From Arenibacter sp. F26102 (GTDB taxonomy: Bacteria; Bacteroidota; Bacteroidia; Flavobacteriales; Flavobacteriaceae), in assembly GCF_023015865.1 (NCBI RefSeq), contig NZ_JALKBC010000006.1:310001-374000 (forward strand): 64,000 nt of DNA, given 5' to 3'. A program made the translations under genes and the position numbers. Shown here piece after piece: positions 8,604 through 51,714 of the stretch (position 1 is the stretch's first letter; each line of letters begins with the position of its first letter). The notes under the pieces are model-generated. The model did no database searches and was not told the DNA's origin. It saw only the letters and a list, made by a program, of their open reading frames with translations.

Positions 8604-8655
8604 TATAGATTGGTCATTGGCCTAATAAAAGCATCTTTTAAAAACCAATTATGAA

Positions 8656-10956: not shown

Positions 10957-11034
10957 TTCTTTTAATTTATTTAATCCATCAATTCCGTTCGCCCGACCAA
11001 TCTACGCCGTGTTTCCCGGTGATTATAGCTATAT

Positions 11035-35976: not shown

Positions 35977-36023
35977 AATTTTGATTTGATTTTAGTTATT
36001 AAGCGACTTTGATCATTTTACAG

Positions 36024-36051
36024 ATCGGAAGGTGCTCCAACACTTTCCGAT
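36024..36051. terminator. Hairpin between fecR and susC
   Basis: Seen: arms ATCGGAAGGTG (36024-36034) and CACTTTCCGAT (36041-36051), pairing with one G-T wobble. The T-run follows it on the plus strand, where no gene ends; on the minus strand the flank is not U-rich. It lies in the 160-base spacer between the fecR stop and susC start, so it may be a weak terminator or a structured leader of susC. Confidence 0.45.
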
Positions 36052-36136
36052 TTTTTTTATTCCCTTTTCGAAATTTCATAGGCAACTTTTTTTAGTTTTT
36101 CCAGGATTCATATTTGGTTAATTTTGCACAATTACA

Positions 36137-37345: not shown

Positions 37346-37546
37346 TTTCCTCGAAAAAACAAAGCAAATTCCAGTGCTTTATTATATAGAGGGAGTAGTT
37401 GTTGTTTTTACTTAAAAAAAACTTAATTTTTTTTAAGAACAATTCACCGTTCCCATCAAAAATACCTGTAAAGTACTGAGAACACTACCCTTATATGGGT
37501 TTCTACAAATTCTACAAAAAGTTAAAAAAAAGTGAAGAAGCAACTA

Positions 37547-38257
37547 CTAACCAAAACCGTGAAGGAAAATAAAGATCGTTAAAAAAACGTCTCCCAAGTG
37601 CTGTCTAAGAAGTTTTATGGTATGGGCCATTAGATTGTAAACCCCCTTTTTATCCATATCCATGATTTCGGAAATCTCCTCATAACCCAGGTTCCCGTAA
37701 TACTTTAGGTGAATAATTTCCTGTTGTTTGCCAGTAAGCTTTTTTAGGGATTTAGTCAATATCTTACGCTCATGATCTAAGCGTTGTTTTTCGATCAAAT
37801 TAATCTCAGATGAAGGAGTAGCCTCCCTAACCATTTCCAATTTTATGGCGGAAACAAACCGATTTCTTTGTTTGGAGGCACCGGCAATCAATTTTCTTCT
37901 AAGGCACTTAAACAAATAGGCCTTGATAGATCGGACAGAGCTTAATCTATGTTTTGTATCCCAAAGTTCCACGAATAGGTCTTGAATGCAATCTTTGACC
38001 AATTCATTGTCTTTCACCAGTTTCATTCCATAGCCGTACAATCTATCCGCATTTAAACTATACATTGAAGCAAATGCAGCTTCATCTCCCCTCTGGAAAT
38101 CTTGCCAGAGTTGTAAATCCGAAACTTCGATACTAGAACGGTTGGCTTCTGAAATCAAGGAATCCTTGATTTCGGTTTGCGAATTCGTACTATGTACAAT
38201 ATTGGATTTCAAATTATGAATGGGGGATTTAAGTAGGTTGCAATCTAGAGAAAACAC
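37547..38257 (-). CDS. ECF sigma-70 factor
   Basis: Seen: 236 aa; region 2 begins near LWQDFQRGDEAAFASMYSLN and includes DCIQDLFVELWD and SIKAYLFKCLRRKLI; region 4 shows LTGKQQEIIHLKYYGNLGYE then EISEIMDMDKKGVYNLM. The first ~45 residues before region 2 are not conserved-looking, so the true start may be later, but no in-frame ATG exists before residue 65. Known: FecR-controlled ECF sigma factors in Bacteroidota drive single SusC/D loci. Context: 201 bases upstream of fecR, first gene of PUL A. The last residues are hydrophobic (FLTIFIFLHGFG), which is odd for a sigma factor. Confidence 0.93.
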   Translation of the reverse strand: MFSLDCNLLKSPIHNLKSNIVHSTNSQTEIKDSLISEANRSSIEVSDLQLWQDFQRGDEAAFASMYSLNADRLYGYGMKLVKDNELVKDCIQDLFVELWDTKHRLSSVRSIKAYLFKCLRRKLIAGASKQRNRFVSAIKLEMVREATPSSEINLIEKQRLDHERKILTKSLKKLTGKQQEIIHLKYYGNLGYEEISEIMDMDKKGVYNLMAHTIKLLRQHLGDVFLTIFIFLHGFG

Positions 38258-38496: not shown

Positions 38497-39261
38497 TTAT
38501 AAATTTTCTTCAGGATACCCCAGCTCCCGTCGTAATTTTAAGCCCATGACCTGGGTCCTATTCCTTAATTTTTTGGCCTGCGTCAAAAGGTTTTCCGTTT
38601 GTATCAATCTATCTACCAACGCGTTCTGATATTCCTTTGTATTAAGTAACGTGTAATAATTGGACACTCTTCCAAAGTCCCTAAGGTTATTGAACTTAGT
38701 GTTTTCCCGTGGAAGTATATCAACCAAGGCAAGGTGTTTTTCCAATACTGGCTGCAAGTGATTGATCACAATGTCGTTGATCTTTGAATCTGTAATCTTA
38801 AATTCCGTAATTTCAGTGGGATAATTGGCTATAAGGGTTTTTAAGGAATCGCTTTCAATAATCTCAAATTTTGAGGTACTGATAACAGAATTTAAGGCCC
38901 CGTCCAGCAAGACCATTGGAGCATAATTAATGTGTACTATAGTATCCTTGGCACCGGGTGTAATTTGTTCTGGAGCCAGGCCAATGTAGTTTATAGTAGC
39001 CTCCAATCTGTTAACATTACCAGAATACTTAACAATGCCGTTATTAAGAACTTTCAAATTTGTGTTCAATTCTTCATATAGGCTATGATAGATTTTCATC
39101 TCCACTATCCTGTTTTTCCTAATCTCATTTAGATCATTGATTTTCCAAGCGATCAGGATACCAATAACGATCAGCAATATTTCCCCAAAAGCGTATAATA
39201 AATAACTTTTAAGTTTTCCTGAGAATATTAAGGTACGTCGGATTTTAGCAAATAGGCGCAT
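38497..39261 (-). CDS. DUF6090-like membrane protein
   Basis: Seen: 254 aa. The N-terminus MRLFAKIRRTLIFSGKLKSY is followed by one membrane helix (about 20-40, LLYAFGEILLIVIGILIAWK) and the NDLNEIRKNRIVEMKIYHSL segment I associate with DUF6090. The rest is a mostly helical extracytoplasmic domain of unknown role; C-terminal helices are rich in Lys/Arg. Known: family is abundant in marine Flavobacteriaceae, often next to unrelated genes; function unknown. Context: last gene of the YHYH/SCO cluster, 5 bases after the SCO1-type gene, so cotranscribed with it. Confidence 0.82.
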   Translation of the reverse strand: MRLFAKIRRTLIFSGKLKSYLLYAFGEILLIVIGILIAWKINDLNEIRKNRIVEMKIYHSLYEELNTNLKVLNNGIVKYSGNVNRLEATINYIGLAPEQITPGAKDTIVHINYAPMVLLDGALNSVISTSKFEIIESDSLKTLIANYPTEITEFKITDSKINDIVINHLQPVLEKHLALVDILPRENTKFNNLRDFGRVSNYYTLLNTKEYQNALVDRLIQTENLLTQAKKLRNRTQVMGLKLRRELGYPEENL

Positions 39262-39266
39262 ATCAA

Positions 39267-39959
39267 TTACTCCAATTTTAAAGCTTTGATATCTGTAATT
39301 AGTTGGGCTATGGAAGCTCTGTTCAATCCATTATAAATACCTCGAATATGTTTGTTTTTATCTACCAACAAGAAGTTTTCGGTATGCAAAAAATCATTTA
39401 TATCCTTTGGCACCCCCAAATCATTCTCTACAAAATATTGATTTCTTCCCAGATTGTAAATTTCCGTTTTGTCCCCCGTAACCAAATGCCATTTATTATC
39501 CAAAACACCATTTTTTTCGGCATAGTTTTTTAACACTGATACAGAATCTATAGATGGGGTTACCGAATGTGATAGCAACAATACCTCCGGATCATCCTTA
39601 AACGCCTCCTGCACTTGTACCATATTCCCGGTCATCTTTAAACATATGCCGGGACAGGTGGTAAAGAAGAAATCCGCTATATAGATTTTGTCATCAAATG
39701 TCTTTTGAGAAACAGTATCCCCAAGTTGATCTACCAATTTAAAATCAGGGATTTTATGAAAATTCTTCTCTTCTATACTATTGGGTACTAACCAATGTGG
39801 CGTAAAGGATTCATCGTTATAGTAGGGGAGGTATTCTACCCTACTGGTCTCCACGACTTCAACGGTCTCCTTTTTTACTTGATTCTTGCAACTACTAACA
39901 AGTGCTAACAAACCAACCAACACCAACCCCTTAATCTTATTCCCTAACAACAACTTCAT
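39267..39959 (-). CDS. SCO1/SenC/PrrC-type copper/thiol lipoprotein
   Basis: Seen: I place the start at 39959 (MKLLLGNKIKGLVLVGLLAL then VSSC), giving 230 aa with a lipoprotein signal; the open frame to 40076 adds 39 residues without signal character. The thioredoxin-like fold has IPDFKLVDQLGDTVSQKTF, the CxxxC motif Cys102/Cys106 in FFTTCPGICLKM, LLLSHSVTPSIDSV, WHLVTGDK and His192 in DFLHTENFLLVDK, the usual third copper ligand. Known: SCO proteins deliver Cu(I) or reduce thiols, classically for the CuA site of cytochrome oxidase. Context: no oxidase genes are near; it overlaps the MORN-repeat gene by 23 bases and sits with three YHYH proteins, suggesting a separate role in that cluster. 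Confidence 0.92.
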   Translation of the reverse strand: MKLLLGNKIKGLVLVGLLALVSSCKNQVKKETVEVVETSRVEYLPYYNDESFTPHWLVPNSIEEKNFHKIPDFKLVDQLGDTVSQKTFDDKIYIADFFFTTCPGICLKMTGNMVQVQEAFKDDPEVLLLSHSVTPSIDSVSVLKNYAEKNGVLDNKWHLVTGDKTEIYNLGRNQYFVENDLGVPKDINDFLHTENFLLVDKNKHIRGIYNGLNRASIAQLITDIKALKLE

Positions 39960-40536
39960 CTTCCAATTTATAACATGAATTAGCCCTGAGCATTCCAAAA
40001 ATGCGTCCGTTTTTAGCCTCATAATTAACATATAATTTCCCATTGGGCAGCCAGGCCTTTTGCAACCCTTCCTCATTACCCTTCAGCAATTGCCTAACTT
40101 TGGACAATTGACCGGTAGCGTACCATTGTTTTTCCTCGCCCTGCTTTAAGCCATTAACGTAATGGGATTCTTCCGCCAGCACCCCATTTTCCCACCAGCT
40201 TTTATACACTCCTACCAATTTGTTTTCATAATAGGTAGATTCTACCCTAAGCACTCCATTTTCCGACCATCTTCTTGCCACACCTTCCCTTTTACCATTT
40301 ATAAACCCTAGTCTTTCGGCCAAGGTATCATTGGCATGAAATTTCACCGAATAGCCATTGTATGGCTGGTTTTTATAATACCACTTGCCTTCAATTTGGT
40401 TAAGGACCAAATCCTGTTTGGATACCTCAACGTTGTCGATTACAACAGCTTTCTCCATCTCGCTTTTTACACTAGTGGCTTCTTTGCAATTTATGAGGGA
40501 TAAGGCCGAAACAATTAATAGGACTACTAGTCGCAT
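39937..40536 (-). CDS. MORN-repeat (YwqK-like) lipoprotein 1
   Basis: Seen: 199 aa. Lipoprotein signal MRLVVLLIVSALSLINC. After WYYKNQPYNGYSVKFHANDT come about five MORN-type units, for example GVARRWSENGVLRVESTYYE, GVYKSWWENGVLAEESHYVN and GLQKAWLPNGKLYVNYEAKN, then an end segment ANSCYKLEDEVVVRE. It is paralogous to the protein at 41813 (see SCYxL and the GxQKAW unit in both). Known: MORN repeats mediate binding or scaffolding; the YwqK-family antitoxin label used by databases is based only on the repeats. Context: 9 bases after the first YHYH gene and overlapping the SCO1-type gene by 23 bases. Confidence 0.85.
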   Translation of the reverse strand: MRLVVLLIVSALSLINCKEATSVKSEMEKAVVIDNVEVSKQDLVLNQIEGKWYYKNQPYNGYSVKFHANDTLAERLGFINGKREGVARRWSENGVLRVESTYYENKLVGVYKSWWENGVLAEESHYVNGLKQGEEKQWYATGQLSKVRQLLKGNEEGLQKAWLPNGKLYVNYEAKNGRIFGMLRANSCYKLEDEVVVRE

Positions 40537-40545
40537 AATATTTTT

Positions 40546-41310
40546 TTAGTATCCCTGATATGGACCGGCAAAAGCCAAATAAGATCCTGTTGTTGAATAC
40601 AGTTCATTGATGATGTGATAGTGGTACTCCTCTTCGCCATCCGTATATTGGGTAGCCGTAGTATGTCCGCCCGAAGCATCCAAATCTGTTGGGTAGGTCC
40701 CTGTGGAAGTACATTTTCTTCCATAAAGAAAAACCCCGTCCAATAAGATCCCAACTAAATTGGAATCATCATCGGTAAAAGCTTTGGGCTCCAAGTGGTA
40801 ATGGTAAACACCAGGGCCTATATGGGCACCCGTCCAATCCAAACTAGCCGCTGCTTGGTTTAATGGGCCGCCTCCTTCCTGATCATTAAAAATGGAGGCC
40901 CCACTTACGGCAATGCCAATAGTATTCAGTTGAGTGGATACTGTACTTCCGGTTAAAGCTGGGGTTGCATCCACCACAATCGTAGTAGCGTTGTTGTTAC
41001 TGGACATGATGCTTGGCGTTCTATCTACATCAGGTTCCTCCTTATAAAGAGAATTCCCTTCTCCCCAATAAACCGTTTCATGGTCCGGCAAACCGGTAGT
41101 TTCTATTACCACATTGGATCCGTCCAAATAAATAGTGGTGGCGTCTGAATTAAAAGCTGAAAATGCAGCATGCAATTCGGTTACAACAGTTTCTTCACTA
41201 TCTTCATCAGAAGCACTATCCGCACTACAGGCAATTAGAGTAGTTAATAGCAAGGCCAAGGCCATTGCTATTGCAGTGATATTTTTATTCACTTTTACAT
41301 CTTTTTTCAT
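40546..41310 (-). CDS. YHYH-domain lipoprotein 1
   Basis: Seen: 254 aa. Lipoprotein signal ending LTTLIAC, followed by an acidic linker (SADSASDEDSEE) like surface-export signals of Bacteroidota lipoproteins. Two YHYH-type motifs: VYHYHLEPKAF and EEYHYHIINELYS. Between them lie NLVGILLDGVFLYGRK and DASGGHTTATQYTDG. Earlier is TTGLPDHETVYWG, also found in the protein at 43114. Known: Pfam YHYH domain, function unknown; paired His-rich motifs invite a metal-binding role, which is inference. Context: 9 bases before MORN protein 1 and followed by the SCO1-type gene. Confidence 0.88.
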   Translation of the reverse strand: MKKDVKVNKNITAIAMALALLLTTLIACSADSASDEDSEETVVTELHAAFSAFNSDATTIYLDGSNVVIETTGLPDHETVYWGEGNSLYKEEPDVDRTPSIMSSNNNATTIVVDATPALTGSTVSTQLNTIGIAVSGASIFNDQEGGGPLNQAAASLDWTGAHIGPGVYHYHLEPKAFTDDDSNLVGILLDGVFLYGRKCTSTGTYPTDLDASGGHTTATQYTDGEEEYHYHIINELYSTTGSYLAFAGPYQGY

Positions 41311-41483
41311 ATCCTTAAATTTTGAGAGTTTTACGTTGTTACTTTTGTTTATTCTGTGTGTATGCTATGACAAATCTCGTAAATCAGGCAACATCAAATT
41401 GCTGAAATCCATGACCTGCCCAATCTTTTAAGTCAATAATGGATATGGATCTGCAAACCAATTTTTAGCCCAATGACTTTCAG

Positions 41484-41624
41484 CTATTTTACGGGCTTAA
41501 TCATTTTATAAATAACCAACACAGCCAATACAATTACAATACATGAAACAACAAAGGCCCACCAGAGATTGGGTTCATTACCCGAAATTCTGAATAGGCC
41601 CCATATGTTTTTCAATAATTCCAT
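41484..41624 (-). CDS. Small single-pass membrane protein (46 aa)
   Basis: Seen: ATG at 41624, stop at 41484, 46 codons. The protein begins MELLKNIWGLFRISGNEPNL, continues with a hydrophobic helix (WWAFVVSCIVIVLAVLVIYK) and ends MIKPVK: short cytosolic or external N-terminus, one membrane helix, positive C-terminus. Amino-acid use is natural for a membrane miniprotein and no longer frame competes. No family recognised. Context: in the 500-base gap between MORN protein 2 and YHYH protein 1, same strand as both. Evidence is the reading frame and its hydrophobic pattern only. Confidence 0.6.
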   Translation of the reverse strand: MELLKNIWGLFRISGNEPNLWWAFVVSCIVIVLAVLVIYKMIKPVK

Positions 41625-41676
41625 AGTATTTTATTGGATTTTCAGATTTATTTTCGGTTCTACAATTTTCGAAAAC

Positions 41677-41739
41677 GTCCGTGATATACCATTTTTCACC
41701 TTAAAGACTACCCTTCAATTATGGTATATAACTACGGAC
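41677..41739. repeat. Imperfect long inverted repeat upstream of the 46-aa gene
   Basis: Seen: GTCCGTGATATACCA (41677-41691) and TGGTATATAACTACGGAC (41722-41739) share GTCCGT and TATACCA blocks in inverted order, with a 30-base interval. It sits between the MORN gene stop (41813) and the 46-aa start (41624). It could be an operator or a loose terminator; no family is recognised. Confidence 0.35.
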
Positions 41740-41812
41740 AGGGTCCATGTCTATTAAAAACCATATTCCTCAATACAGAATTATGTGCTTAGGCTTTAAA
41801 GTTGGTTCCTTT

Positions 41813-42490
41813 TTATAGCGTCTCGTCGCCATTGGACGATTTAATTACTTCCTCATTGGCAAGGCCATAACAGGAAACTGATTTTTGCAACCCATAGCGC
41901 ACCCCGTTTTTGACCACAAAGTTTCTAAACAAACTTCCATTTTTACGCCATGCCTTCTGCATCCCAACTTGACGATCATCCTTATAATTATATTCGTAAT
42001 ATGGTTCTCCATTGGAATACCAGCTCTTTTGAACACCTTCTTTTTTTTGATTATAGTAATTATATTCAAACTTCAGATTTCCAGTATCCTCCCAATACCC
42101 ATATTGTTTCCCTATCGCTTTATTAGCCCTATACTGTCTTACTTCATACGGCTTACCATTTTCATAAAAACTTCTATACTTACCATGAAGCATGCCGTTT
42201 AAAACGGAGCTATACGTTTTAAGGTTATAACCCTTTAAAACCTTAAATACAATTCCTGAATACTCCTTATTATCCAAATAATAAATACCATTTACATACG
42301 AAACCCTTGGATCCTTAAAGTCGACCGTATCCGTTGGAATGTCACTGGTATTCACGGAATAATCCAATTCCTTTTTAATAATTTTTGTGCTGGATTCTTG
42401 ATCCACACAGTTACTTAGAAACAAGACCATTACACAACAAACTACACTTCTTGTATATACATGGACAAAAAGGCCATATTTAACCATCAT
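41813..42490 (-). CDS. MORN-repeat (YwqK-like) lipoprotein 2
   Basis: Seen: 225 aa. Signal-like N-terminus MMVKYGLFVHVYTRSVVCCV, then MVLFLSNC, the best lipobox. MORN-type units include GKYRSFYENGKPYEVRQYRA, KQYGYWEDTGNLKFEYNYYN, GVQKSWYSNGEPYYEYNYKD and GMQKAWRKNGSLFRNFVVKN, and the end segment SVSCYGLANEEVIK. Clearly paralogous to the protein at 39937, including the C-terminal Ser-Cys-Tyr. Known: repeats of this type are structural; no enzymatic motif. Context: 19 bases after the C-type-lectin-fold gene, likely cotranscribed with it and YHYH protein 2. Confidence 0.85.
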   Translation of the reverse strand: MMVKYGLFVHVYTRSVVCCVMVLFLSNCVDQESSTKIIKKELDYSVNTSDIPTDTVDFKDPRVSYVNGIYYLDNKEYSGIVFKVLKGYNLKTYSSVLNGMLHGKYRSFYENGKPYEVRQYRANKAIGKQYGYWEDTGNLKFEYNYYNQKKEGVQKSWYSNGEPYYEYNYKDDRQVGMQKAWRKNGSLFRNFVVKNGVRYGLQKSVSCYGLANEEVIKSSNGDETL

Positions 42491-42509
42491 AGTTCACCAT
42501 TTTGTTAAC

Positions 42510-43079
42510 CTAGTCATATTCAATAACAAAATAGAGTTGGTTTTTGTTTCCATCCAAATCCGTCCATTTACCAGCACTATTTATAGGTGTCGTTTCCAAA
42601 CCAATACACAAAGCATCCTGGTCCCCATTATTATCAGGTTCATTGCCCCAATTGTTATATAATCCGTTAACGGCACTACCATCTACTCCCCCACTCCAAA
42701 AAGCAACTCCTGTTTCTTCATTGTCCCAATTCCAGACCCAGGATCCTTCTTCAGCTAAATCGTTACCTCCCAACCAAACCGCTGCATATCCAAATTCATT
42801 GTTGGTTTCGTCCAAAACGATACCCGCTTTAGTTGTAAGTTCAAGAAAAACAGCATTTTGTTCTTCTTCACTATTTATCTCTGATATATAACCTCCCCGC
42901 GCTACCGCAAATGAAACAGCATCCGTCCAAGTTTTATTTTCCTTTACAATTTCGTAAGATGTCTCATCAAAACTAAAGGCATAAATACTGGAACCCTCAA
43001 CACTTTCCTCTTCCATTTCGGCGGTCTTACCGCAAGAAACAATGGCTAAAAGCGAGGTATATAGGATTATTTTTCTCAT
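42510..43079 (-). CDS. C-type-lectin-fold lipoprotein
   Basis: Seen: start placed at 43079 (MRKIILYTSLLAIVSC, lipobox Cys16), 189 aa; the frame to 43109 adds ten residues without need. The mature part has the C-type-lectin layout: SYEIVKENKTWTDAVSFAVA, GGYISEINSEEEQNAVF, AAVWLGGNDLAEEGSWVWNW, FWSGGVDGS, LYNNWGNEPDNNGDQDALCI and GKWTDLDGN. The WGNEPDN and WTDLDGN stretches match the usual calcium/sugar-binding loops (EPN/WND-like). Known: such domains bind glycans or proteins. Context: between YHYH protein 2 (34-base gap) and MORN protein 2. Its ligand is unknown. Confidence 0.85.
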   Translation of the reverse strand: MRKIILYTSLLAIVSCGKTAEMEEESVEGSSIYAFSFDETSYEIVKENKTWTDAVSFAVARGGYISEINSEEEQNAVFLELTTKAGIVLDETNNEFGYAAVWLGGNDLAEEGSWVWNWDNEETGVAFWSGGVDGSAVNGLYNNWGNEPDNNGDQDALCIGLETTPINSAGKWTDLDGNKNQLYFVIEYD

Positions 43080-43113
43080 TTTGGCTTGATAAGTTTTACG
43101 CATCACCATGATT

Positions 43114-43896
43114 TTATTCGAAAAATGTGCCTTTGGTACCGTAATAAGCCCCTGATTTAATTACATACAGACCCGATGTTGAATACACGTCATTACTGGT
43201 GTGATAATGGTATATAGCATCAGAAAAATCCGCGGTCACACCAATATGCCCACCATTGTCATCAAGATTGTCGGGATACGCCCCATCCTTGTCCTTACGT
43301 CCATAAATTGGAAATCCATCCCTTAAAAAGCCTATAAGATTAGCGTCATCAACGGTAAGATATGTCCCCTCACTGTGGTAGTGATAGTCCTCTCTTGGTC
43401 CCGGGTGGGCACCTGATGCATCGAAAGTTCCCCATGCATTTTCTTCTAGCATGCCCCCACCTTCATAATCATTGTAAATAGGCACTCCATTGAGAGCCAT
43501 TCCAACAGGACCCAATTCGGTTTCCTCTTTATAGCTGGCTTCTTGAGGCTTTGTTGGAATTGTCATCACGTAATTAAAAGTCGTCATGCTCGTATTCATG
43601 TTGGCATGATTGGTTCCTGGAAAATCTTCATACATTTCGTGGCCAACGCCCCAGTACGGTGTTTTGTGATCTGGCAATCCTGTACTACTCACCTGAATGC
43701 TATTATCGCTCACCTGTACACTAACCCCTTCTGTATAATCATTCCTATAATTGGCCTGTACAACAGTCGTAATATCAACAGAGCCCTCGCTAGCTGTGTC
43801 CTCGTCTGTACTATCTACATTAGTGCTGCTGCATGCCATAAATAGAATTAAAATCAGACTGGCCGTGGGTATTAGGTAATAAAGTATTCTTTTCAT
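43114..43896 (-). CDS. YHYH-domain lipoprotein 2
   Basis: Seen: 260 aa. Lipoprotein signal ending LFMAC, then an acidic linker (SSTNVDSTDEDTASE). Motifs: STGLPDHKTPYWGVGHEMYE, PVGMALNGVPIYNDYEGGG, DYHYHSEGTYLTVDDANLIG, GFPIYGRKDKDGAYPDNLDD, GGHIGVTADFSDAIYHYHTS. It aligns along most of its length with YHYH protein 1. Known: domain of unknown function. Context: followed by the lectin-fold gene; preceded by a 566-base gap that holds only a gene fragment. Confidence 0.88.
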   Translation of the reverse strand: MKRILYYLIPTASLILILFMACSSTNVDSTDEDTASEGSVDITTVVQANYRNDYTEGVSVQVSDNSIQVSSTGLPDHKTPYWGVGHEMYEDFPGTNHANMNTSMTTFNYVMTIPTKPQEASYKEETELGPVGMALNGVPIYNDYEGGGMLEENAWGTFDASGAHPGPREDYHYHSEGTYLTVDDANLIGFLRDGFPIYGRKDKDGAYPDNLDDNGGHIGVTADFSDAIYHYHTSNDVYSTSGLYVIKSGAYYGTKGTFFE

Positions 43897-44116
43897 TTTA
43901 TAAGTTTAAAAATTCTTATTCTTCAGAAATTGAATGGGAAAAATTTGTTCTTCCATTTTGAGTTCAAATTTAAAGATATCCATGATGCCAAATTCATGAA
44001 ATCAATAAATGGCCCTATCCTTTAAACGAATGGTAGGTTTTGTCCGGGGAAGAAATTTTGACGACCTGAAATATGGCTATATTTAAACCCCAGATACATT
44101 CCTAATGATATAAATA

Positions 44117-44350
44117 CTAATCTACGGTATACCTTAACAGTGCCAGATTAACCAAAATAACATTGGTACTCCATATAAAAGTGGCGTCATATGCACTGTC
44201 AGCGAATACCTCTGTAAAATTGGAATATGAGGCTTTATTGTTCACCCCAATTTCATCATTTGTGTAAGTCGTTGCATTTGGCCAAACGGAATCATCGAAA
44301 GCCTCCGTTTCCCAGCCATCATCAGAGTTGTCCTCCTCTGTTGTTTGCAT
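44117..44350 (-). pseudogene. Gene fragment: C-terminal piece of an exported protein
   Basis: Seen: an open frame of 77 codons whose sequence (DDGWETEAFDDSVWPNATTY ... DATFIWSTNVILVNLALLRY) reads like the last part of a secreted jelly-roll domain, not like a complete protein. It has no signal peptide, and a stop codon lies two codons before the first ATG. No homologous continuation was found in the other frames up to the DUF3500 stop at 44463. I read it as a remnant of a deleted neighbour in the YHYH cluster. It could instead be a small real ORF. Confidence 0.4.
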
Positions 44351-44462
44351 TTTTCATATAAAAGCTGCAAATGCCATAGTAAATTATATCTCAATGGAAC
44401 TTCGTCCCCATATAGACTTTTCCTATTCTCCTCAGCCCAATTTAAAATACCATGCGTTCTCT

Positions 44463-45800
44463 TTAAAGGCTTTGTAGATGGGCAAGGTTCTCTTGCCAAT
44501 ATGCATCAGAGTTAGTAAATTTATAATCAAATTTTACTTCACTAAACTTGTGGTGATCTGCCATAGCATAATGCTCTAAAAGTGTTTTTGGTCCATCTTG
44601 GTTGATCAAGTAAGCAAAGATGCCGTAATCTCCTCCGTCATCCGTTGCTGGATTGTTGGGTATACGGGTTATGGTATGTACATGATTGTAGTCCGCAATA
44701 GTACCAGAATTGGCCCCTGTTGAGCCTTCGGTGTTGAATTCCGCCCATAAATACGGATTATAAATTCTGTAATAGAACTCAGAGGTAGCAGTTGGTGAAG
44801 AATTTGTATCGTTTATCCACACCAAGTAGGTGTCATCTATATTTTCCATAATATCCGTCCACCAAACATCCGCAAAATTGTCGGTAAGATTATACACATA
44901 TTCTTTCATTAAGAGAATGAGGTTGGCTTGTGCTGTGGAAGACATTTCAGAATATTTAAGCCCAGTTGCGAAACCCGAATAATCATAATCTCCCCTGTAC
45001 GGATCTGGATCACCATTCATATCCGCCGGACCAACTTCCAAAGAATGTGATGAACTAGTTGTCACTGCCGCTGAAATCTCATCGGTATCAAGACTATTAT
45101 AAAGCGTTATAGCCAAATCGCGTTCATCCGAAAAAATATCGAAATTCTCACCGTTCCAAGTATCCGAGGCTGGCTCACCCCCTAAGAATGCAGGAACCAT
45201 GGAAACATTGTCCCCGTCCACTAAAAAGTTGATCACACAGTGGTGTCCATCCAATTGAAAACCCCACGATCCACTGGTCTCTGGATCACCGAACATATCT
45301 ATTGAGTAGAAATCCGGATCCCAAACCGAACTCATTACATTGTTCAGCCACCCTTCTGAAAGTTCTGTAATTTCATAGACTTTTTGATATCCTCCCGTAC
45401 TCAAAAACAATTGTAAAATATTTTTAAAAGCCGTCAACTGTTCATTGGACAGGTCACCATAGGTTATACCATCCCTATTTCCATTATTGGCTGGAGTATT
45501 GTGCCATAGATAAAAACGTTCATCATCCAAACATACTGAACCCTCTTCCTGTAGACTGGTGGAGAGGGAGTTTCTAAAATCAACCATGGCGAGGCGCATA
45601 GTCTCAATTTCGGTATTGGTAGATTGTGCTGCGTCTTCTGTACTACAGTCCAAAGCAAAAGTGTCGTCGGTGCTGTCGTCATTGGTAGTATCATCCTTGG
45701 TGCTTTCCGTTGTGGAACTGTCATCGCTACATTGCACGAAAGTGGTGGTCAAAGCAAATAACAATAAAAACAGTGAGAGGTATTTGGTAATCGTTTTCAT
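44463..45800 (-). CDS. DUF3500 family lipoprotein
   Basis: Seen: 445 aa. Lipoprotein signal ending TTTFVQC and a long Ser/Thr/Asp linker (SDDSSTTESTKDDTTNDDST). The domain has DDERFYLWHNTPANNGNRDG, GWLNNVMSSVWDPDFYSIDM, GSWGFQLDGHHCVINFLVDG, MVPAFLGGEPASDTW, FYYRIYNPYLWAEFNTEGST and YNHVHTITRIPNNPATDDGG. The QLDGHH and HVHTITR elements are those I associate with DUF3500. Known: function unknown; the conserved His residues suggest a metal or catalytic site. Context: within the YHYH cluster, downstream of the membrane-anchored protein at 46097. Confidence 0.88.
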   Translation of the reverse strand: MKTITKYLSLFLLLFALTTTFVQCSDDSSTTESTKDDTTNDDSTDDTFALDCSTEDAAQSTNTEIETMRLAMVDFRNSLSTSLQEEGSVCLDDERFYLWHNTPANNGNRDGITYGDLSNEQLTAFKNILQLFLSTGGYQKVYEITELSEGWLNNVMSSVWDPDFYSIDMFGDPETSGSWGFQLDGHHCVINFLVDGDNVSMVPAFLGGEPASDTWNGENFDIFSDERDLAITLYNSLDTDEISAAVTTSSSHSLEVGPADMNGDPDPYRGDYDYSGFATGLKYSEMSSTAQANLILLMKEYVYNLTDNFADVWWTDIMENIDDTYLVWINDTNSSPTATSEFYYRIYNPYLWAEFNTEGSTGANSGTIADYNHVHTITRIPNNPATDDGGDYGIFAYLINQDGPKTLLEHYAMADHHKFSEVKFDYKFTNSDAYWQENLAHLQSL

Positions 45801-46096
45801 ATATTTGAAATTAGAGTTGATTATAAATTGAAATTAATTTAGACCGGCAGTCATTGAATACTTTTATTTCATTGACAAACCCTTTAAAATTTTGTTCATT
45901 CTGCCATGGCACAGGTATTTTCATTTTTTATTACGTTTTAGGCAAAAGCATCACCGTACTTCCAAAAATGAGCTATGACAATAATCCGCAAGTAGCTTGC
46001 ATTGAAATTCCTGTTATCCGCGTTCATTTTATTGGCTATGAAGCCGAGTAGTTATTATTTCCTAAAATCTCCGCTAGTCGTACCCAAAAATTCAAA
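45801..46096. other. Intergenic spacer, no gene recognised
   Basis: Seen: 296 bases between the DUF3500 start and the stop of the 46097 gene. No open frame of convincing character, hairpin or TAnnTTTG element stood out. It is wide enough to hold a promoter for the DUF3500 gene. Confidence 0.4.
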
Positions 46097-46759
46097 TCAT
46101 CGAACTATGGTAAGAGGCACTTCTTTAGATTTATTGGACCTATTAAATAAATGGCCTACCCCCAACACTATCAAGCCCAAAACCAAAATCGCTGCTACAC
46201 CCAATACAATGACCCCTATACTGGACGAAAAAAAACTAGCCTCATTTTTGCCTACTTCCACGAATTGATTTCCATCTACCGCCAATGAGAGGGTGTGATC
46301 ATTGGCATTATTCAAAACAAAACGTTCTTTGTTAAATCCCTCCTTTAAAAGGATTAAGGCGCTTTGATTTTGGTGGATGTCCTTAAAAATAGTATTTGTA
46401 AGCAACACCGAATTTATATCTGAGGGAATATCAAAGACTTCGTAAACCACCATGGTTTCATGACCAAGTTTTACCGCCCCATTCCCGAAAGAAATATCCT
46501 CTCCACTATTGAAACTGATATGAAGGTTGTTTTTAATATGCTCCAACACCATTTGCTGAAACTCCTCTGGAGATTGATAAGGTGTTTCAGAAAAATGGGT
46601 TCGTATTTCCTGTTGAAAAGCGGTTAACGATGCGCTTATCTGTAATACCCAACTGTTATTCCCCTTTTCGACCAGCATAGTGGTGGAAACATTGGGATTG
46701 TGGGCAAAACTTGCCATTGAAAACCCCAAAGCGAAAAGCACTAACATGTATTTTTTCAT
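46097..46759 (-). CDS. Exported, C-terminally membrane-anchored protein of unknown function
   Basis: Seen: 220 aa. Type I signal MKKYMLVLFALGFSMASFA followed by HNPNVSTTMLVEKGNNSWVL, a beta-rich extracytoplasmic domain, and a C-terminal membrane helix (about 178-202, SSSIGVIVLGVAAILVLGLI) with a basic tail. The start resembles Bacteroidota DUF6702-like proteins and the N-terminal region of HupE-type metal-related proteins, but I cannot assign a family firmly. Context: between YHYH protein 3 (98-base gap) and DUF3500 in the YHYH cluster. Sig-domain-helix topology fits an inner-membrane partner for the lipoproteins around it. Confidence 0.7.
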   Translation of the reverse strand: MKKYMLVLFALGFSMASFAHNPNVSTTMLVEKGNNSWVLQISASLTAFQQEIRTHFSETPYQSPEEFQQMVLEHIKNNLHISFNSGEDISFGNGAVKLGHETMVVYEVFDIPSDINSVLLTNTIFKDIHQNQSALILLKEGFNKERFVLNNANDHTLSLAVDGNQFVEVGKNEASFFSSSIGVIVLGVAAILVLGLIVLGVGHLFNRSNKSKEVPLTIVR

Positions 46760-46857
46760 CTGTTTATATTTTTTTGTTTAAAAAATCTATTGGAATAAGC
46801 CATATCTCGCTCCTACTGGCATACCAATCTGGTCAAGACTCTTTTTTAGCATTATTT

Positions 46858-47865
46858 TCAATTGACGTAAGCTCCCTTTAAACCATTTATAAAATTATTA
46901 TTGCCGGCTGCGTCTACATGATAATGATATCCTCTAGTGTTATCCGTATGCCCCCTTAATTCATCCAAGCCTGAAGGACTATCGCCATTGGCATCTTCCA
47001 AAGCATAAATTCCAATTCCGTCCAAGGCGTAACCGATCAAAGTTGCATGCCCATCGTCTTGGGCTATTTGTGTCCCGAATCCTGTAGCTGCATGGTAGTG
47101 GTAACCCTGATGTACATTAATATGTCCACCAGCATCATCAAAAGGAGCAAGGGTGTATGCCCCAAGTATATTATCCACAGGTGCCGGAGCAGAAAATTCA
47201 ATCCCGTTCAAAGCTACTCCACGAGTCGAAGGTGCAGTATTGCCTGCTCCCGGAGGCCCTCCTCCAGCGGTAGTAAATAAAGTTGGACTCGCCTGTATTA
47301 CCGGCGTTACTGGTATTACCCAGGTCTGACTTAAGTCAGTAATATAAGAAGGAAGGCATTCTACGCAGAAGTTCTCATATTCGGCGCCCACATTTGGGTT
47401 GGCAGCATTCTCACAATCTTCTTCCGTATCGGTTACATATATATCTCCATTGGTATCATATAATAGCCAATTGGTATCGTTGTAAAATGTCGCCAAATTT
47501 TCAACAAAGGCACCATCCACATCATAAACTTCCCCGCCTTCCAGCCATATGCCACCTGCCTCTGCATCGTCGGCAATATTGTCCGGACACCAAGGTCCCA
47601 TATCGTGATCTGCGGCCAAACTGGAGGTAACAATTTGATAGCAATCCGTTTCGGTGCCATCTGAAAGTGTACAAGGAATAGTTGTAATCGTAACCGATCC
47701 ATCTGCCGTATAAAAGTAGGATGGTTCAACATTTACAACAGCGGTATCATCCACTGTATCACCATCATCCGTGCCATCCGTAGTACCCCCACTATCATTG
47801 CTACAGCTGAGGCATGACATGAGGAGCGCGGTACCTACAATTAAATATGAAAATTTATTCGACAT
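46858..47865 (-). CDS. YHYH-domain lipoprotein 3
   Basis: Seen: 335 aa, the longest of the three. Lipoprotein signal ending LMSCLSC, then NDSGGTTDGTDDGDTVDDTA. An insert absent from the other two contains MGPWCPDNIADDAEAGGIWL and a Cys-bearing segment (DCENAANPNVGAEYENFCVE). The YHYH part has RGVALNGIEFSAPAP, GGHINVHQGYHYHAATGFGT, TLIGYALDGIGIYALED, ELRGHTDNTRGYHYHVDAAG and KGAYVN at the end. Known: unknown function. Four Cys in the insert and two His clusters give many potential metal ligands (inference). Context: 35 bases after the EF-hand gene. Confidence 0.9.
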   Translation of the reverse strand: MSNKFSYLIVGTALLMSCLSCSNDSGGTTDGTDDGDTVDDTAVVNVEPSYFYTADGSVTITTIPCTLSDGTETDCYQIVTSSLAADHDMGPWCPDNIADDAEAGGIWLEGGEVYDVDGAFVENLATFYNDTNWLLYDTNGDIYVTDTEEDCENAANPNVGAEYENFCVECLPSYITDLSQTWVIPVTPVIQASPTLFTTAGGGPPGAGNTAPSTRGVALNGIEFSAPAPVDNILGAYTLAPFDDAGGHINVHQGYHYHAATGFGTQIAQDDGHATLIGYALDGIGIYALEDANGDSPSGLDELRGHTDNTRGYHYHVDAAGNNNFINGLKGAYVN

Positions 47866-47900
47866 AGTTTCAGTTTTATAATTACACTTAAGTTCTTTAC

Positions 47901-48191
47901 CTAATCACGTTTACGTCCTTTTGGTTTTGGTGCTTTCTCCAACTCCTCTTTAGAGATGTAACCATCCTCATCCGTATCTATCTTGGCGAAATCATCTTTG
48001 ATAGGACCTTTTAATTCTTCTTTGGATAATTTCCCATCCTCATCCTTGTCCATTTCCTTAAAAATTTCATCTACGGATGGAGGCTCTTTTTGTCCTTTCC
48101 CGCCTTGAGACTGTTGTGCACTAAGGTTAGCGCTAAAAAATAAGGTTACCATTGCGGTTAACACTGCCGATTTTACTATCATTTTTTTCAT
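47901..48191 (-). CDS. Exported EF-hand protein
   Basis: Seen: start placed at 48191 (MKKMIVKSAVLTAMVTLFFS then ANLSAQ, type I signal), 96 aa. Two complete EF-hand loops: DKDEDGKLSKEE and DTDEDGYISKEE, each with Asp/Asp/Asp/Glu calcium-ligand spacing, and a basic tail (KAPKPKGRKRD). Known: calcium-binding pair of loops; in exported bacterial proteins usually a sensor or structural calcium module. Context: first gene of the YHYH cluster in transcription direction and divergent from the LytS/LytTR pair at 48382 (190-base shared upstream region), which suggests it marks the promoter of the cluster. Confidence 0.9.
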   Translation of the reverse strand: MKKMIVKSAVLTAMVTLFFSANLSAQQSQGGKGQKEPPSVDEIFKEMDKDEDGKLSKEELKGPIKDDFAKIDTDEDGYISKEELEKAPKPKGRKRD

Positions 48192-48381
48192 AGTTATTGT
48201 TTTTAAATTCATTCTTTGGACTACAAAGATGGCCCATGGTTGAATACCAAATGGCTTCTTTCAGTGAACCTACACAGGTTTTAAGCGAATTAAGTGATAG
48301 CTCCGGTGAACTTCAAATTATGAAGGGCTTGGATAGCCTATTTTTACATTGTGATGAAAATTAATTCCTTTAATTTGTACC

Positions 48382-49413
48382 ATGGACAGAACAAAACGAT
48401 TTCTTTTTCACACGGTATTATGGCTAGCCGTTTGGCTCATGGCCTGGTTGCTTATGACAGATGATGCGCTCTTTGCCAAAAAGAACGCACCCTCTTTTCT
48501 TCTGCAAATTGTGGTCATTGCCGTTCTGATCTATTACACGGCGCCCGCACTTTTGTTCAAAAAAAAATATGTACCCTTTATATTGATCTCCTTGGCCCTG
48601 ATCGTTTTCTGCGCAGCAATGATTTCTGATCATTTTGTAGAACTGATTTCAGGTCAACCACCTCGCCAGGCAGGTCCACCACCTCACATGCGCCCCAGGG
48701 TACCGCCCCAATTTCTGATCCACTTTTTGATATTGTCCATTGCCTATGTACTGGCCACTTTTGTGGAAACATTTTTGTTTGCACAAAAGAAGGAAGAAGA
48801 AAATATTAGGAACAAAAATGAAAATTTACAGACTGAACTAAAACTACTGAAATCGCAGATCAACCCACATTTTTTGTTCAATTCCCTAAACAATATTTAT
48901 GCGCTTTCGGTTACCAATTCGGACAAGACCCAGCAGGGGATCAGTACCCTTTCCAACATGTTGCGCTATGTTTTGTACGAATGTGAACAAGCTTATGTTC
49001 CATTAGGCAAGGAGGTCGATTATATAAAGGACTATTTGGCCATGTACGTCTTAAAAAGCAGTAAAACCTATCCCATACAAACGAAATTTCAAATAAATAA
49101 TGATGTTGTACAGGTAGCCCCCATGCTTTTCATTCCCTTTGTTGAAAATGCTCTAAAACACGGTAATCTAGAAAAGATAACGGATGCTTTTTTAAAAATA
49201 AGTATCATTTCCGACGACAAAAACATCGATTTTGAAATTGAAAACAGCATCCCTAAGGAATCGATGCAAAAAGACAAAATTGGAGGAATAGGCCTGGAAA
49301 ACGTAAAGAAAAGATTGGAAATACTATATCCTAAAAAGCATACTTTAAAGATCCAAAAAGAATTAACTACTTTTAAGGTTCAACTACACATAGATCTGAA
49401 TGGGGACCATTAA
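48382..49413 (+). CDS. LytS/YpdA-type sensor histidine kinase (third pair)
   Basis: Seen: 343 aa. Four hydrophobic helices in the first ~135 residues, with a Pro/Arg/His-rich loop (GQPPRQAGPPPHMRPRVPPQ) between helices 3 and 4 that could bind metal or an anionic ligand. The kinase domain has the H-box INPHFLFNSLNNIYALSV, the N-box FVENALKHG and GGIGLENVKKRLEILYP. Known: PF06580 family. Context: overlaps the regulator gene by 14 bases and diverges from the EF-hand/YHYH cluster, making that cluster its likely target. Confidence 0.93.
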   Translation: MDRTKRFLFHTVLWLAVWLMAWLLMTDDALFAKKNAPSFLLQIVVIAVLIYYTAPALLFKKKYVPFILISLALIVFCAAMISDHFVELISGQPPRQAGPPPHMRPRVPPQFLIHFLILSIAYVLATFVETFLFAQKKEEENIRNKNENLQTELKLLKSQINPHFLFNSLNNIYALSVTNSDKTQQGISTLSNMLRYVLYECEQAYVPLGKEVDYIKDYLAMYVLKSSKTYPIQTKFQINNDVVQVAPMLFIPFVENALKHGNLEKITDAFLKISIISDDKNIDFEIENSIPKESMQKDKIGGIGLENVKKRLEILYPKKHTLKIQKELTTFKVQLHIDLNGDH

Positions 49414-50077
49414 ATGTTTAATCGTAGACGATGAGGAGTTGGCACGAAGCCTCCTCAAAACCTATGTTGCAAAAGTGAATTTTTTGGAATTGGTGGCCGA
49501 TTTCGAAAATCCCTTGGACGCCATAAAGGTGCTTAAGGAACAAAAAATAGATCTACTGCTGCTGGACATACAAATGCCCGAAATTAAAGGTACAGAGTTT
49601 GCAAAAATGATTTCACCCGATACCCAGGTCATCTTTACAACTGCATACTCGGAATACGCCTTGGAAGGCTTTGAACTAAATGCCATAGATTATCTCTTAA
49701 AGCCCATAACTTTTGAACGCTTTCTAAAGGCTGTCAACAAAATTAAAACGGACACTGAACAAGATACTTCAGAGGATACAATAATCGTTAAATCGGGCTA
49801 TGACCTGCATAAAATAAAGTTCGATTCCATTCTTTACATTGAGAGCGATAGCGAATATGTCATTTATCACACCCTGCAAGGAAAGATCATGAGCAACCAG
49901 AGCCTTACAGCTTTGGAAAAAAGACTGCCAAAGGAATTGTTCATGAGGGTACACAGGTCCTATATCGTTAATAAGAAAAAAGTGAGTGCCCTGAAGGGGA
50001 AGGATGTGTTTATTGAAAAAGTGGCCATTCCAGTTAGCGCCAGCTATTTCGATTCGGTAAAAAGCAACCTGTTTTAG
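49400..50077 (+). CDS. LytTR-family response regulator (third pair)
   Basis: Seen: 225 aa. Receiver with LIVDDEE and predicted phosphoacceptor Asp56 in LLLLDIQMPEIKG, TTAYSEYALEGFELNAIDYL and the conserved Lys in LLKPI. The LytTR domain has IIVKSGYDLHKIKFDSILYI and LFMRVHRSYIVNKKKV. Its linker is shorter than in the other two regulators. Context: start codon inside the kinase gene; convergent with the GH30 gene of PUL B, whose stop is 24 bases away. No clear terminator separates them. Confidence 0.94.
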   Translation: MGTIKCLIVDDEELARSLLKTYVAKVNFLELVADFENPLDAIKVLKEQKIDLLLLDIQMPEIKGTEFAKMISPDTQVIFTTAYSEYALEGFELNAIDYLLKPITFERFLKAVNKIKTDTEQDTSEDTIIVKSGYDLHKIKFDSILYIESDSEYVIYHTLQGKIMSNQSLTALEKRLPKELFMRVHRSYIVNKKKVSALKGKDVFIEKVAIPVSASYFDSVKSNLF

Positions 50078-50101: not shown

Positions 50102-51697
50102 TCATTCCTCGGCATCAAAAACCATGGTTGTCACCGATTTTCCAAGTACCCCGATCGAGTTCTTTTTTGAAAAGCCCTTGTCCATTTTGCGTAGGTTAAA
50201 GGATTCGTTGGTTATATAGCTATTCATCCTAGTTTCTGCAGGATATGCCATATTCAGCCTTAAATCGATGGCCTTTTCCCTTTGGTTTACTACCACAACC
50301 ACTATACTCTTATCCTGATTTTTATAGGCTGATATCAAAACCCCATCCTTTAAGTTGTCCTCCTCATTGATACCTTTGTAGTCAACAAAAACCCTTTTTG
50401 CACCTGGCCTAACGAATCTAGAGTAATTGCCCAAGGCCCATAGCAATTTGGAGTCGAAATAATTGCCGTCCTCAGTGTCCTTGTCCACATAAATAAGTCC
50501 GTCCTTAAAATCGTATGGACTCATGGCCAACCACCAATGCCAGGCACTCGCATTGGCAATGGTTAGATCGGCATGGATAAGACGGGCCACATAAAGTGCC
50601 GTCTGCATGCCCAAATCCCGACCTTTTCCCTTTATTTCCTCATTGTTCTCCAAAATGCAGTATTCGCTCATCCAATACTCCAATGAAGGATATTTTAGCA
50701 ATTTTTCCGCCATTCGCTGTCTTTCACTTTTAAGTTTTTGAATATCCCAAGTTGTAAAATAACTATGTGCTGCAACCTTTGGGGCCACCGATTTTAAATT
50801 GGCTAAATAGTTGGGACTCTCTGGACTAAAAAAAGTTTCAATTTGGTTGCTTCTGTTATTATGCTTTTCTTTTTCCCCTGTTAAATAGCCTATAGCCCCG
50901 GCCTCCGTAAGCTCTATTTTGGTATCTATTTTCTGCTGGATAAAAACGGAATCGATTACCTTGGTGGCATCTGCCAATTCGTTATTGTTCCAAGGCGAAC
51001 CTTCCTGCCCGCCTTTCCATTCCCACTGGGGCTCATTGAACGGACTTATGTAATCAAAATCAATGGATAGGCTATCCCTAAAATGGTGAACAAAATTGGC
51101 CAAGAACACCCCATAATCAACATACTTATCCTTGGATAAATTAGCCGCCAATCCGTCCTCGGAATGCGCCTTATTGTTCTTGGTCATTTGTATGGGCGGA
51201 CTGTTCACAAAAGCTATGAATTCTTCTACATCTCGTTCTTTTGCCGCCTGTAGAAACCATTGTTGTCCTGCTTGCTTTCGCCAATCATATCTCCCATTGT
51301 CCTGTAAAAAGCCTTCCGCCCTTCTCCAAGGATCCTTTATCCCACTTTCGCTGCCTTGGGCTGCACTACCTGCACCAATATTAAAGCGCCAGGCCGATAG
51401 CCCAATTCCTTTTGGGGATCCATTTGTATGGTTTTCCAGACTAAACAACCAATCGGCCATTTGTTGTTTTTTATTATCTGGCCATAGGCCCGTATACTGC
51501 GCCGCCCATGCATCGGAAGCTGCGAAATTGTGAATGGTCTGATATTCCTTATCAATTGAAATATCTACCTTGACTACATCATTCCTTTGCGAAAAAGAAA
51601 AATGGCACACAAGTACAGCAAAGGCTAAAATGATATTAAATTCGGCTTTAAAATATTTAAGGGATTGATCAGCCGTTAATAATTTACTTCTATTCAT
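50102..51697 (-). CDS. GH30 family glycoside hydrolase
   Basis: Seen: 531 aa. A longish n-region then signal peptide ending HFSFSQ. The (beta/alpha)8 domain has IGLSAWRFNIGAGSAAQGSE, PWRRAEGFLQDNGRYDW, FVNSPPIQMTKN, the predicted acid/base Glu222 in FDYISPFNEPQWEW and the predicted nucleophile Glu345 in LEYWMSEYCIL, then ASAWHWWLAMSPYDFKDGLI. A side beta-sandwich follows. Known: GH30 is a retaining family that includes beta-1,6-glucanase, beta-1,6-galactanase, xylanase and exo-enzymes; I cannot choose between these. Context: last gene of PUL B, and its only glycoside hydrolase, with three sulfatases upstream. Confidence 0.9.
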   Translation of the reverse strand: MNRSKLLTADQSLKYFKAEFNIILAFAVLVCHFSFSQRNDVVKVDISIDKEYQTIHNFAASDAWAAQYTGLWPDNKKQQMADWLFSLENHTNGSPKGIGLSAWRFNIGAGSAAQGSESGIKDPWRRAEGFLQDNGRYDWRKQAGQQWFLQAAKERDVEEFIAFVNSPPIQMTKNNKAHSEDGLAANLSKDKYVDYGVFLANFVHHFRDSLSIDFDYISPFNEPQWEWKGGQEGSPWNNNELADATKVIDSVFIQQKIDTKIELTEAGAIGYLTGEKEKHNNRSNQIETFFSPESPNYLANLKSVAPKVAAHSYFTTWDIQKLKSERQRMAEKLLKYPSLEYWMSEYCILENNEEIKGKGRDLGMQTALYVARLIHADLTIANASAWHWWLAMSPYDFKDGLIYVDKDTEDGNYFDSKLLWALGNYSRFVRPGAKRVFVDYKGINEEDNLKDGVLISAYKNQDKSIVVVVVNQREKAIDLRLNMAYPAETRMNSYITNESFNLRKMDKGFSKKNSIGVLGKSVTTMVFDAEE

Positions 51698-51714
51698 AAT
51701 GCCTCTCTAACCGT

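Follow-up and report, generated by a model that had tools for sequence, protein, structure and literature searches.

A conserved YHYH-MORN-SCO1 lipoprotein module of Bacteroidota with a predicted LytTR regulon and a putative role in metal handling

What holds together a run of eleven genes, nearly all encoding exported or lipid-anchored proteins, that lies between two polysaccharide loci and next to a LytS/LytTR sensor-regulator pair? The question is raised by a 64,000-nt stretch of Arenibacter sp. F26102 (NCBI RefSeq assembly GCF_023015865.1, contig NZ_JALKBC010000006.1, positions 310,001 to 374,000), which we call the window and whose own numbering is used throughout. Eleven minus-strand open reading frames (ORFs) fill positions 38497-48212, in the order, with the gene nearest LytS first, EF-hand, YHYHc, DUF6702, DUF3500, YHYHb, C-lectin, MORNb, YHYHa, MORNa, SCO1 and DUF6090-like; the LytS (48382-49413) and LytTR (49400-50077) genes, on the plus strand, diverge from the EF-hand gene. 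A first-pass annotation had described this arrangement and proposed a metal-handling or oxidative module under LytTR control. ORFs and Pfam matches agree with the layout, and no transporter, oxidase or carbohydrate-active enzyme family is matched within the eleven genes, as that annotation had also stated. We find that the run contains a real conserved module with a well-supported predicted regulon, and we lean, with modest confidence, towards reading it as a surface or periplasmic system for a transition metal, most likely copper, under its own LytS/LytTR pair. Conserved linkage, conserved residues and promoter repeats are the observed part of this reading.

The core is a triad of lipoprotein genes on the minus strand, conserved in the Flavobacteriaceae and in other Bacteroidota: YHYHa (40546-41310; two D...H...YHYH motifs; Pfam E-value 4.1e-8), MORNa (39937-40536; a Pfam MORN_2 match and a conserved Cys near the C-terminus) and SCO1/SenC (39267-39959; CxxxC and a distal His; 1.4e-22). 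The YHYH family (PF14240) occurs in at least 87 of the 299 Flavobacteriaceae genomes searched, and stretches were fetched around many, not all, of the matches listed. The first 20 were mostly picked because of multiple YHYH genes or one of full length, the rest are mainly short-type matches, and the last added include some places with full-length YHYH and DUF3500; the presence of SCO1 or MORN was never a selection criterion. Genes were labelled with profiles built from the same fetched loci. Among 73 YHYHa and YHYHb genes in 68 loci, 59 have a same-strand SCO1 gene no more than 1.2 kb away (36/40 YHYHa and 23/33 YHYHb), and MORNa lies within 300 bp of 33/40 and 19/33, respectively. Within 6 kb of YHYHc genes we find DUF6702 (13/19), LytS/LytTR (8/19) and SCO1 (7/19), and SCO1 is equally near 8 of the 23 genes of the full-length type, YHYHf. 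With five SCO1 genes in all on the 5.44 Mb of the Arenibacter genome, adjacency by chance should be rare.

The linkage extends beyond the family. When 395 Bacteroidota genomes were searched with the YHYHa protein of the window, 19 of them, its own included, gave a match, and 19 of the 22 matches outside its own genome were fetched with about 3.7 kb each. Some are Flavobacteriaceae once more; the remainder belong to several further families of the class and phylum. SCO1 is present in 18 of these 19 loci and a labelled MORNa in 14; locus L223 has no SCO1 within its ~3.7-kb stretch. The co-occurrence check suggested by the first-pass annotation therefore came out in its favour, since many genomes show linkage among the YHYH, MORN, SCO1, EF-hand and LytS/LytTR genes.

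Within the genus, 10 of 18 genomes carry YHYH genes and 8 do not, and in all ten the LytS/LytTR pair diverges from a cluster that includes YHYHa and SCO1. As a rule the genes run EF-hand, YHYHc, DUF6702, YHYHa, MORNa, SCO1 and DUF6090-like, with a labelled orthologue of the last beside SCO1 in 8 of 9 loci. Exceptions are L192, without a labelled EF-hand or YHYHc gene, L188, without the DUF6090-like gene, and L187 and L188, in which MORNa is uncalled. The interval between DUF6702 and YHYHa is variable, with four extra genes in the window and a second YHYH/DUF6702 pair in L184; a 525-amino-acid gene stands between YHYHc and DUF6702 in L185 and L191. In several genomes (L186, L188, L190, L114 and L115) a second, different LytS/LytTR pair is seen near the other end of the cluster.

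Could the run simply consist of unrelated surface genes that came together by chance between two polysaccharide loci? Four minus-strand genes of the window would fit, since no counterparts turn up at the corresponding position in the rest of the genus: MORNb (41813-42490), a second lipoprotein with a Pfam MORN_2 match, whose label is absent from the same-genus loci; a C-type lectin-like lipoprotein (42510-43109; Lectin_C, 4.2e-5), without a relative at an E-value of 1e-10 in the other fetched loci; the lipoprotein YHYHb (43114-43896; 9.3e-18), accessory in the genus; and a DUF3500 lipoprotein (44463-45800; 3e-68). These four, which had been counted as parts of the module, look accessory rather than core. 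For the core, however, the linkage counts refute chance: gene order is kept across genera and families, promoter repeats are shared, and a distant cotH gene (below) is present in 10/10 genus genomes with the cluster against 0/8 without it. We regard chance as hardly credible.

If the module is real, does the adjacent LytS/LytTR pair control it? The intergenic region between the EF-hand and LytS genes holds three LytTR-type direct repeats in exact 21-bp steps, about two helical turns (48258-48270, 48279-48291 and 48300-48312, plus strand), which form the two top-scoring pairs of the whole 64-kb window. A further pair (41426-41459, plus strand), also 21 bp apart and with a score of 15.8, weaker than the EF-hand site, lies 115 bp upstream of YHYHa. 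The scoring matrix was trained on ten same-genus regions (20 distinct sites) and tested on 11 held-out loci of other genera, where the mean best pair score is 20.2 at a spacing of 21 bp versus at most 5.6 at the other spacings from 14 to 30. Nine of the 11 score at least 19.6, and in 200 dinucleotide shuffles per locus the observed score was unreached in ten loci and reached once in L115.

Which genes have such repeats? In 23 loci of the LytTR type and 21 of the extracytoplasmic function (ECF) sigma factor type described below, the 300 bp preceding every gene were scanned for pairs scoring 13 or more; the counts are not independent trials because the loci are related. In LytTR-type loci such a pair precedes 16/18 EF-hand genes and 11/20 YHYHa genes but 2/267 unlabelled ORFs, one of these two being the CotH gene of L092, and none is found before SCO1 (0/21), MORNa (0/17), DUF6702 (0/19) or DUF6090-like (0/14) genes. 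With 420 bp allowed, the counts are 12/20 for YHYHa and 4/18 for YHYHc, three of the latter being the site by LytS; two of the YHYHa matches (L123 and L154) share the LytS region. In ECF-type loci there is no such pair upstream of any of 316 genes (21 EF-hand, 25 YHYHa or YHYHb, 10 CotH, 35 ECF sigma and 225 unlabelled). Beyond these 23 LytTR-type loci, L210 carries a pair scoring 16.2 next to LytS.

The spacing to a second element is also regular. The octamer CATCTTTG (48224-48231, minus strand in the window), which we take to be a -7-like element and which probably belongs to the promoter of the EF-hand operon, is read towards the target gene. In 11 of 16 repeat-bearing EF-hand promoters, the window included, its distance from the proximal repeat is exactly 26 bp. 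In L155 the distance is 47, one repeat step more, and the element is absent in L185, L092, L163 and L168. It stands at 26 bp in 8 of the 10 cotH promoters in which spacing was measured, being absent in L206 and L207; four further cotH promoters are outside this count. LytTR control of the module, as first proposed, is thus putative but has support in the sequence.

The same prediction reaches a gene on another contig. The genome has one gene for the kinase-like CotH, away from the cluster. The centre of its repeats lies 84 bp ahead of the called start, and their score is 17.2, the next best in 20 kb being 8.8. In the genus, cotH is present in 10/10 genomes with the cluster and 0/8 without (Fisher's exact test, 2.3e-5, phylogeny ignored), and all ten cotH genes have repeats 71-84 bp upstream with scores of 14.6-21.5, the best pair of the stretch in nine. 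In three other genera in which cotH lies apart from the YHYH cluster (L207, L208 and L209) the cotH site is the best of its stretch at 21.5-23.8, and the cotH site of L154 is likewise the best. The other 20 of 24 loci have no repeats directly upstream of cotH (L155, L164, L210, L211-L217 and ten of the ECF type); in L155, L164 and L210 cotH is in the same locus as LytS/LytTR, and in L214 LytS/LytTR adjoins it. Across the 299 family genomes, YHYH is found among the matches listed in 24/27 with CotH versus 63/272 without (p = 1.5e-11, phylogeny ignored), the exceptions with CotH being G043, G228 and G258. In many ECF-type loci cotH is inside the cluster.

Some further observations concern the surroundings of cotH. 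Genes of about 250, 200 and 240 amino acids precede CotH in L211, L213 and L215; in L215, whose YHYH-MORN-SCO1 cluster is of the ECF type, they are a VTC domain protein, DUF4956 and DUF2490. A VTC polyphosphate polymerase as a fixed partner of the module was rejected, as none was found in the Arenibacter genome. One CotH match, in a cluster of the ECF type (G168:C1:3111138-3111857), contains three in-frame stops and looks broken. Beside cotH in the Arenibacter genome there is a DUF6515 protein (L197:9418-10014), and a protein that looks similar by eye is inside the YHYH cluster of L092 (7465-8133).

These associations bear on a rival account, in which the module is a calcium-dependent surface-matrix system: the EF-hand protein, CotH, the lectin and carbohydrate-binding proteins would shape a polysaccharide coat, and metal would be secondary. 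It gains from the tie between CotH and the cluster, from VTC and DUF4956 beside CotH in L215, from the 525-amino-acid product of L185, which is a Cthe_2159 carbohydrate-binding protein, and from the adjacency of CotH, polyphosphate polymerase and DUF4956 to Pel loci in Gram-positives, given in the part of that report available to us (PMC7112168). EF-hand loops also occur within YHYH proteins, near the C-terminus in 13/23 YHYHf and near the N-terminus in 3/31 YHYHc (for example in L085, L087, L088, L108, L109 and L110). However, the most constant core, YHYH-MORN-SCO1, is often without an EF-hand or CotH gene in the same stretch, and an EF-hand gene is within 6 kb of only 23/40 YHYHa and 7/33 YHYHb genes. 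We consider this account quite unlikely as the main function. The EF-hand gene of the window (47901-48191, minus strand) encodes a small protein with two loops and, by eye, a signal-like N-terminus; a lanmodulin-like identity was rejected, at 27.7 bits versus a cut-off of 135.

Not every lineage uses the LytS/LytTR pair. Around the 60 SCO1 genes of the family loci, LytS/LytTR is present within 8 kb of 11, an ECF sigma factor with anti-sigma-like or Spy-like genes of 23, neither of 26 and both of none. The module thus has two kinds of adjoining regulator, and in the first-pass annotation's claim of LytTR control the repeats at the EF-hand, YHYHa and cotH promoters back the putative control itself, but LytTR is one of two regulators rather than the sole one. 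The ECF set consists of an ECF sigma factor, a protein of about 105 amino acids without a Pfam match at the anti-sigma position, and a Spy-like protein with weak LTXXQ and Metal_resist matches. It presumably resembles sets of ECF sigma, anti-sigma and periplasmic sensor of the type that we take to be CnrYXH; the likeness is that of an ECF sigma/anti-sigma/sensor-like trio, found in other lineages and not in the window, and homology is putative.

What, then, do the proteins handle? The SCO1 family match is strong (80.5 bits, cut-off 22.8), and both Cys of CxxxC and the distal His are kept in 70/70 proteins. The three YHYH domains of the window score 33.9, 65.3 and 40.1 bits (cut-off 25); YHYHc is a lipoprotein encoded at 46858-47865 on the minus strand (4.9e-10). 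Two D...H...YHYH motifs are present in 50/50 YHYHa, 26/32 YHYHb, 29/31 YHYHc and 0/23 YHYHf proteins, and the invariant columns in 32 aligned proteins include D158, H163, H170, H172, D191, D211 and H230. All 60 MORNa proteins with a score of 150 or more have a Cys among their last 40 residues, in 48 of them as CY, which bears out the C-terminal Cys noted earlier. The gene at 46097-46759 (minus strand), left unnamed in the first-pass annotation, is DUF6702 (27 bits, cut-off 24; 5.2e-6), the family for which the literature offers the strongest evidence on metal. Where the signal is presumably cleaved, as placed by eye, 25 of 26 DUF6702 proteins have Ala-His, so that the mature protein of the window would probably begin with His, and 25 of 26 keep a second His; the exception to Ala-His is L192, whose called start is without a signal. 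In published measurements a DUF6702 homologue bound nickel, cobalt and copper; coordination by its N-terminal His was proposed, and the protein was described as a metal sequesterase that shows neither oxidase nor peroxidase activity (PMC12537917). Together with the conserved ligand residues, this published binding favours the metal handling suggested at first.

The same residues permit another chemistry, in which the YHYH proteins would be surface zinc-dependent hydrolases and SCO1 a thiol-disulfide reductase for MORN and YHYH rather than a copper chaperone. A pure thiol reductase would need no distal His, and the 70/70 conservation of that residue in SCO1 counts against the proposal, while the conserved Cys of MORN would suit a thiol partner. 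In a partly available paper a YHYH site of three His and one Asp was predicted to be that of a zinc-dependent hydrolase (PMC7824862), and D, H and HxH are indeed kept in 50/50 YHYHa proteins, but the published assignment is itself a prediction. We think this alternative unlikely. YHYH has also been counted, in the accessible part of another paper, among the carbohydrate-binding and host-recognition domains of phage structural proteins (PMC7029224). Two single-protein scans found no YHYH relatives in viral contigs, the PHROGs database gave one weak match only, and the PDB holds no credible solved relative.

The transition-metal reading could work as follows. LytS would sense an envelope signal, and LytTR would bind the 21-bp repeats and activate EF-hand-YHYHc-DUF6702, YHYHa-MORN-SCO1-DUF6090-like and the distant cotH. 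DUF6702 would capture metal through its N-terminal His; SCO1 would use CxxxC and His to reduce the metal or load it onto the YHYH lipoproteins, perhaps via the conserved Cys of MORN, and the duplicated D-H-YHYH motifs would be the final metal sites. The EF-hand protein would contribute calcium binding, CotH may phosphorylate a surface protein, and in other lineages the ECF sigma/anti-sigma/Spy-like set would take over the regulatory job of LytS/LytTR. A bolder form, possible but doubtful in our opinion, is that YHYH-MORN-SCO1 is a new cuproprotein assembly line of Bacteroidota with exchangeable regulators, in which D-H-YHYH would be an undescribed copper site metallated by SCO1, possibly that of a redox enzyme.

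Several observations weigh against the transition-metal reading with LytS/LytTR control. Metal handling by the window proteins is likely at the level of their families, and the identity of the metal is a prediction. The cluster has no copper ATPase, oxidase or known copper regulator. The published DUF6702 prefers nickel and was modelled with His1, His28 and His32, according to the part of that work available (PMC12537917); by hand count, not aligned to that protein, the window's DUF6702 has His at mature positions 36, 55, 61 and 81, and by this simple numbering none at 28 or 32. The AlphaFold model of YHYHa, built with four sequences, has a predicted local distance difference test score (pLDDT) of 37.5 and is unusable, and no conserved metal-ligand motif was found in the outer loop of LytS. 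On the regulatory side, the YHYHa site of the window is weak, its 15.8 being equalled at 20485, an unrelated place, and in 8 of 20 cases the region upstream of YHYHa has no pair reaching 13, even when 420 bp are considered. Two held-out loci are weak at the LytS site, L113 (11.3, with a best spacing other than 21) and L115 (9.9); L164, L167 and L214 have LytS/LytTR or LytTR-like genes and no pair reaching 13; 4 of the 10 cotH stretches contain stray pairs of 15-17.5 away from cotH; and the regulon list may be incomplete.

The remaining features of the window are more peripheral. Pfam matches include two MORN_2 domains, His_kinase, Response_reg with LytTR, and an EF-hand pair; the LytS-type sensor histidine kinase has, by eye, a hydrophobic N-terminal half and a Pro-rich loop. 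Two starts are more likely not the first listed start codons, judging from the reading frames: that of SCO1 at 39959, re-assigned by eye in a frame open to 40076 and overlapping the end of MORNa, and that of the EF-hand gene at 48191. The protein of 38497-39261 (minus strand), last of the presumed YHYHa operon and with a hydrophobic N-terminal stretch by eye, does not keep its earlier DUF6090 label: it has no DUF6090 match in Pfam, one weak unrelated match only, and an orthologue reaches an E-value of 0.17 (12.1 bits, cut-off 23.5). On one flank (32464-38257) there is a polysaccharide locus with ECF sigma, FecR and a protein that is SusC-like by eye, and on the other (50102-53142) one with GH30 and a sulfatase; in several same-genus genomes the cluster adjoins other sulfatase-like genes, again by eye.

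DUF3500, which had been taken to have no functional clue, does have one. Its model (pLDDT 63) matches PDB entry 9x86 by fold (1.4e-15), and its sequence matches the same entry, under the name Amc20 (1.9e-11); the title of the entry is dehydratase ApmL of amipurimycin biosynthesis. The protein thus resembles an ApmL-type dehydratase, an activity that is putative and rests on the PDB title. In the window and 18 of 20 DUF3500 loci, H186, H187, H373, H375, H410, H416 and H417 are invariant. The window type (231.9 bits, 456-amino-acid frame) has by score no counterpart in the 17 other genus genomes, whose DUF3500 matches score 282-334 bits, and DUF3500 as a core member was rejected since it is missing from the other genus loci. 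In 6 of 20 DUF3500 loci the gene directly follows a LytS-LytTR pair: in L005, L007, L008, L009, L010 and L020 (around 7900-11300) a protein 75-86% identical to that of the window over the best segment stands right after its own pair, with no labelled YHYH neighbours. None of the six, when scanned, has a repeat pair of at least 14; possibly they form a second LytTR-linked system. Some relatives (e.g., L015, L017 and L019) have C-terminal tails rich in His, which accounts for as many as 12 of the last 30 residues and suggests metal binding; the window protein has no such tail.

Of the first-pass interpretation as a whole, linkage, sequence support for LytTR and metal ligands stand, but the accessory genes, DUF3500 as a protein without a clue and the sole regulator do not. 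What emerges is that Pfam families that have hardly any established role in the cell, or none (YHYH, DUF6702 and a MORN_2 subfamily), are joined in one conserved system, which brings a predicted regulon reaching onto another contig, a residue-level metal hypothesis and a possible non-oxidase client for one class of SCO1. The open-access literature that we searched contained no description of this module, no report on CotH kinase with Flavobacteri, nothing related for CotH, SCO1, EF-hand and Flavobacteri, and for Amc20 unrelated uses of the word only; the best-matching papers pairing two of YHYH, SCO1, SenC and MORN repeat had no YHYH.

How does the module compare with known systems? In its regulation it is presumably similar to the LytTR regulons that we take to be of the AgrA/LytR type, with a LytTR regulator and direct repeats 21 bp apart upstream of targets, but its repeat, in the direction of the target, is approximately TTCACTGAA/TTCACTTAA, its targets are the module's own, and the sensor pair is part of the module. 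SCO1/SenC copper chaperones of oxidase assembly belong to the same family as the window SCO1 and have the same CxxxC and His; the module differs in having no oxidase or copper ATPase, its constant partners being YHYH and MORN lipoproteins. The DUF6702 metal sequesterase shares with the window protein the Pfam family, export and a probable mature N-terminal His. In the part of the report available, its family is found mainly in Bacteroidota and its neighbours are an M1 peptidase and HAD (PMC12537917), whereas the DUF6702 of the module is mainly with YHYHc; the main text of that paper mentions neither YHYH nor SCO1. The YHYH proteins of jumbo-phage tails, as far as they are described in the accessible text (PMC7824862), have the same Pfam domain with its His/Asp motif, whereas those of the module are cellular lipoproteins with a duplicated motif and SCO1 next to them.

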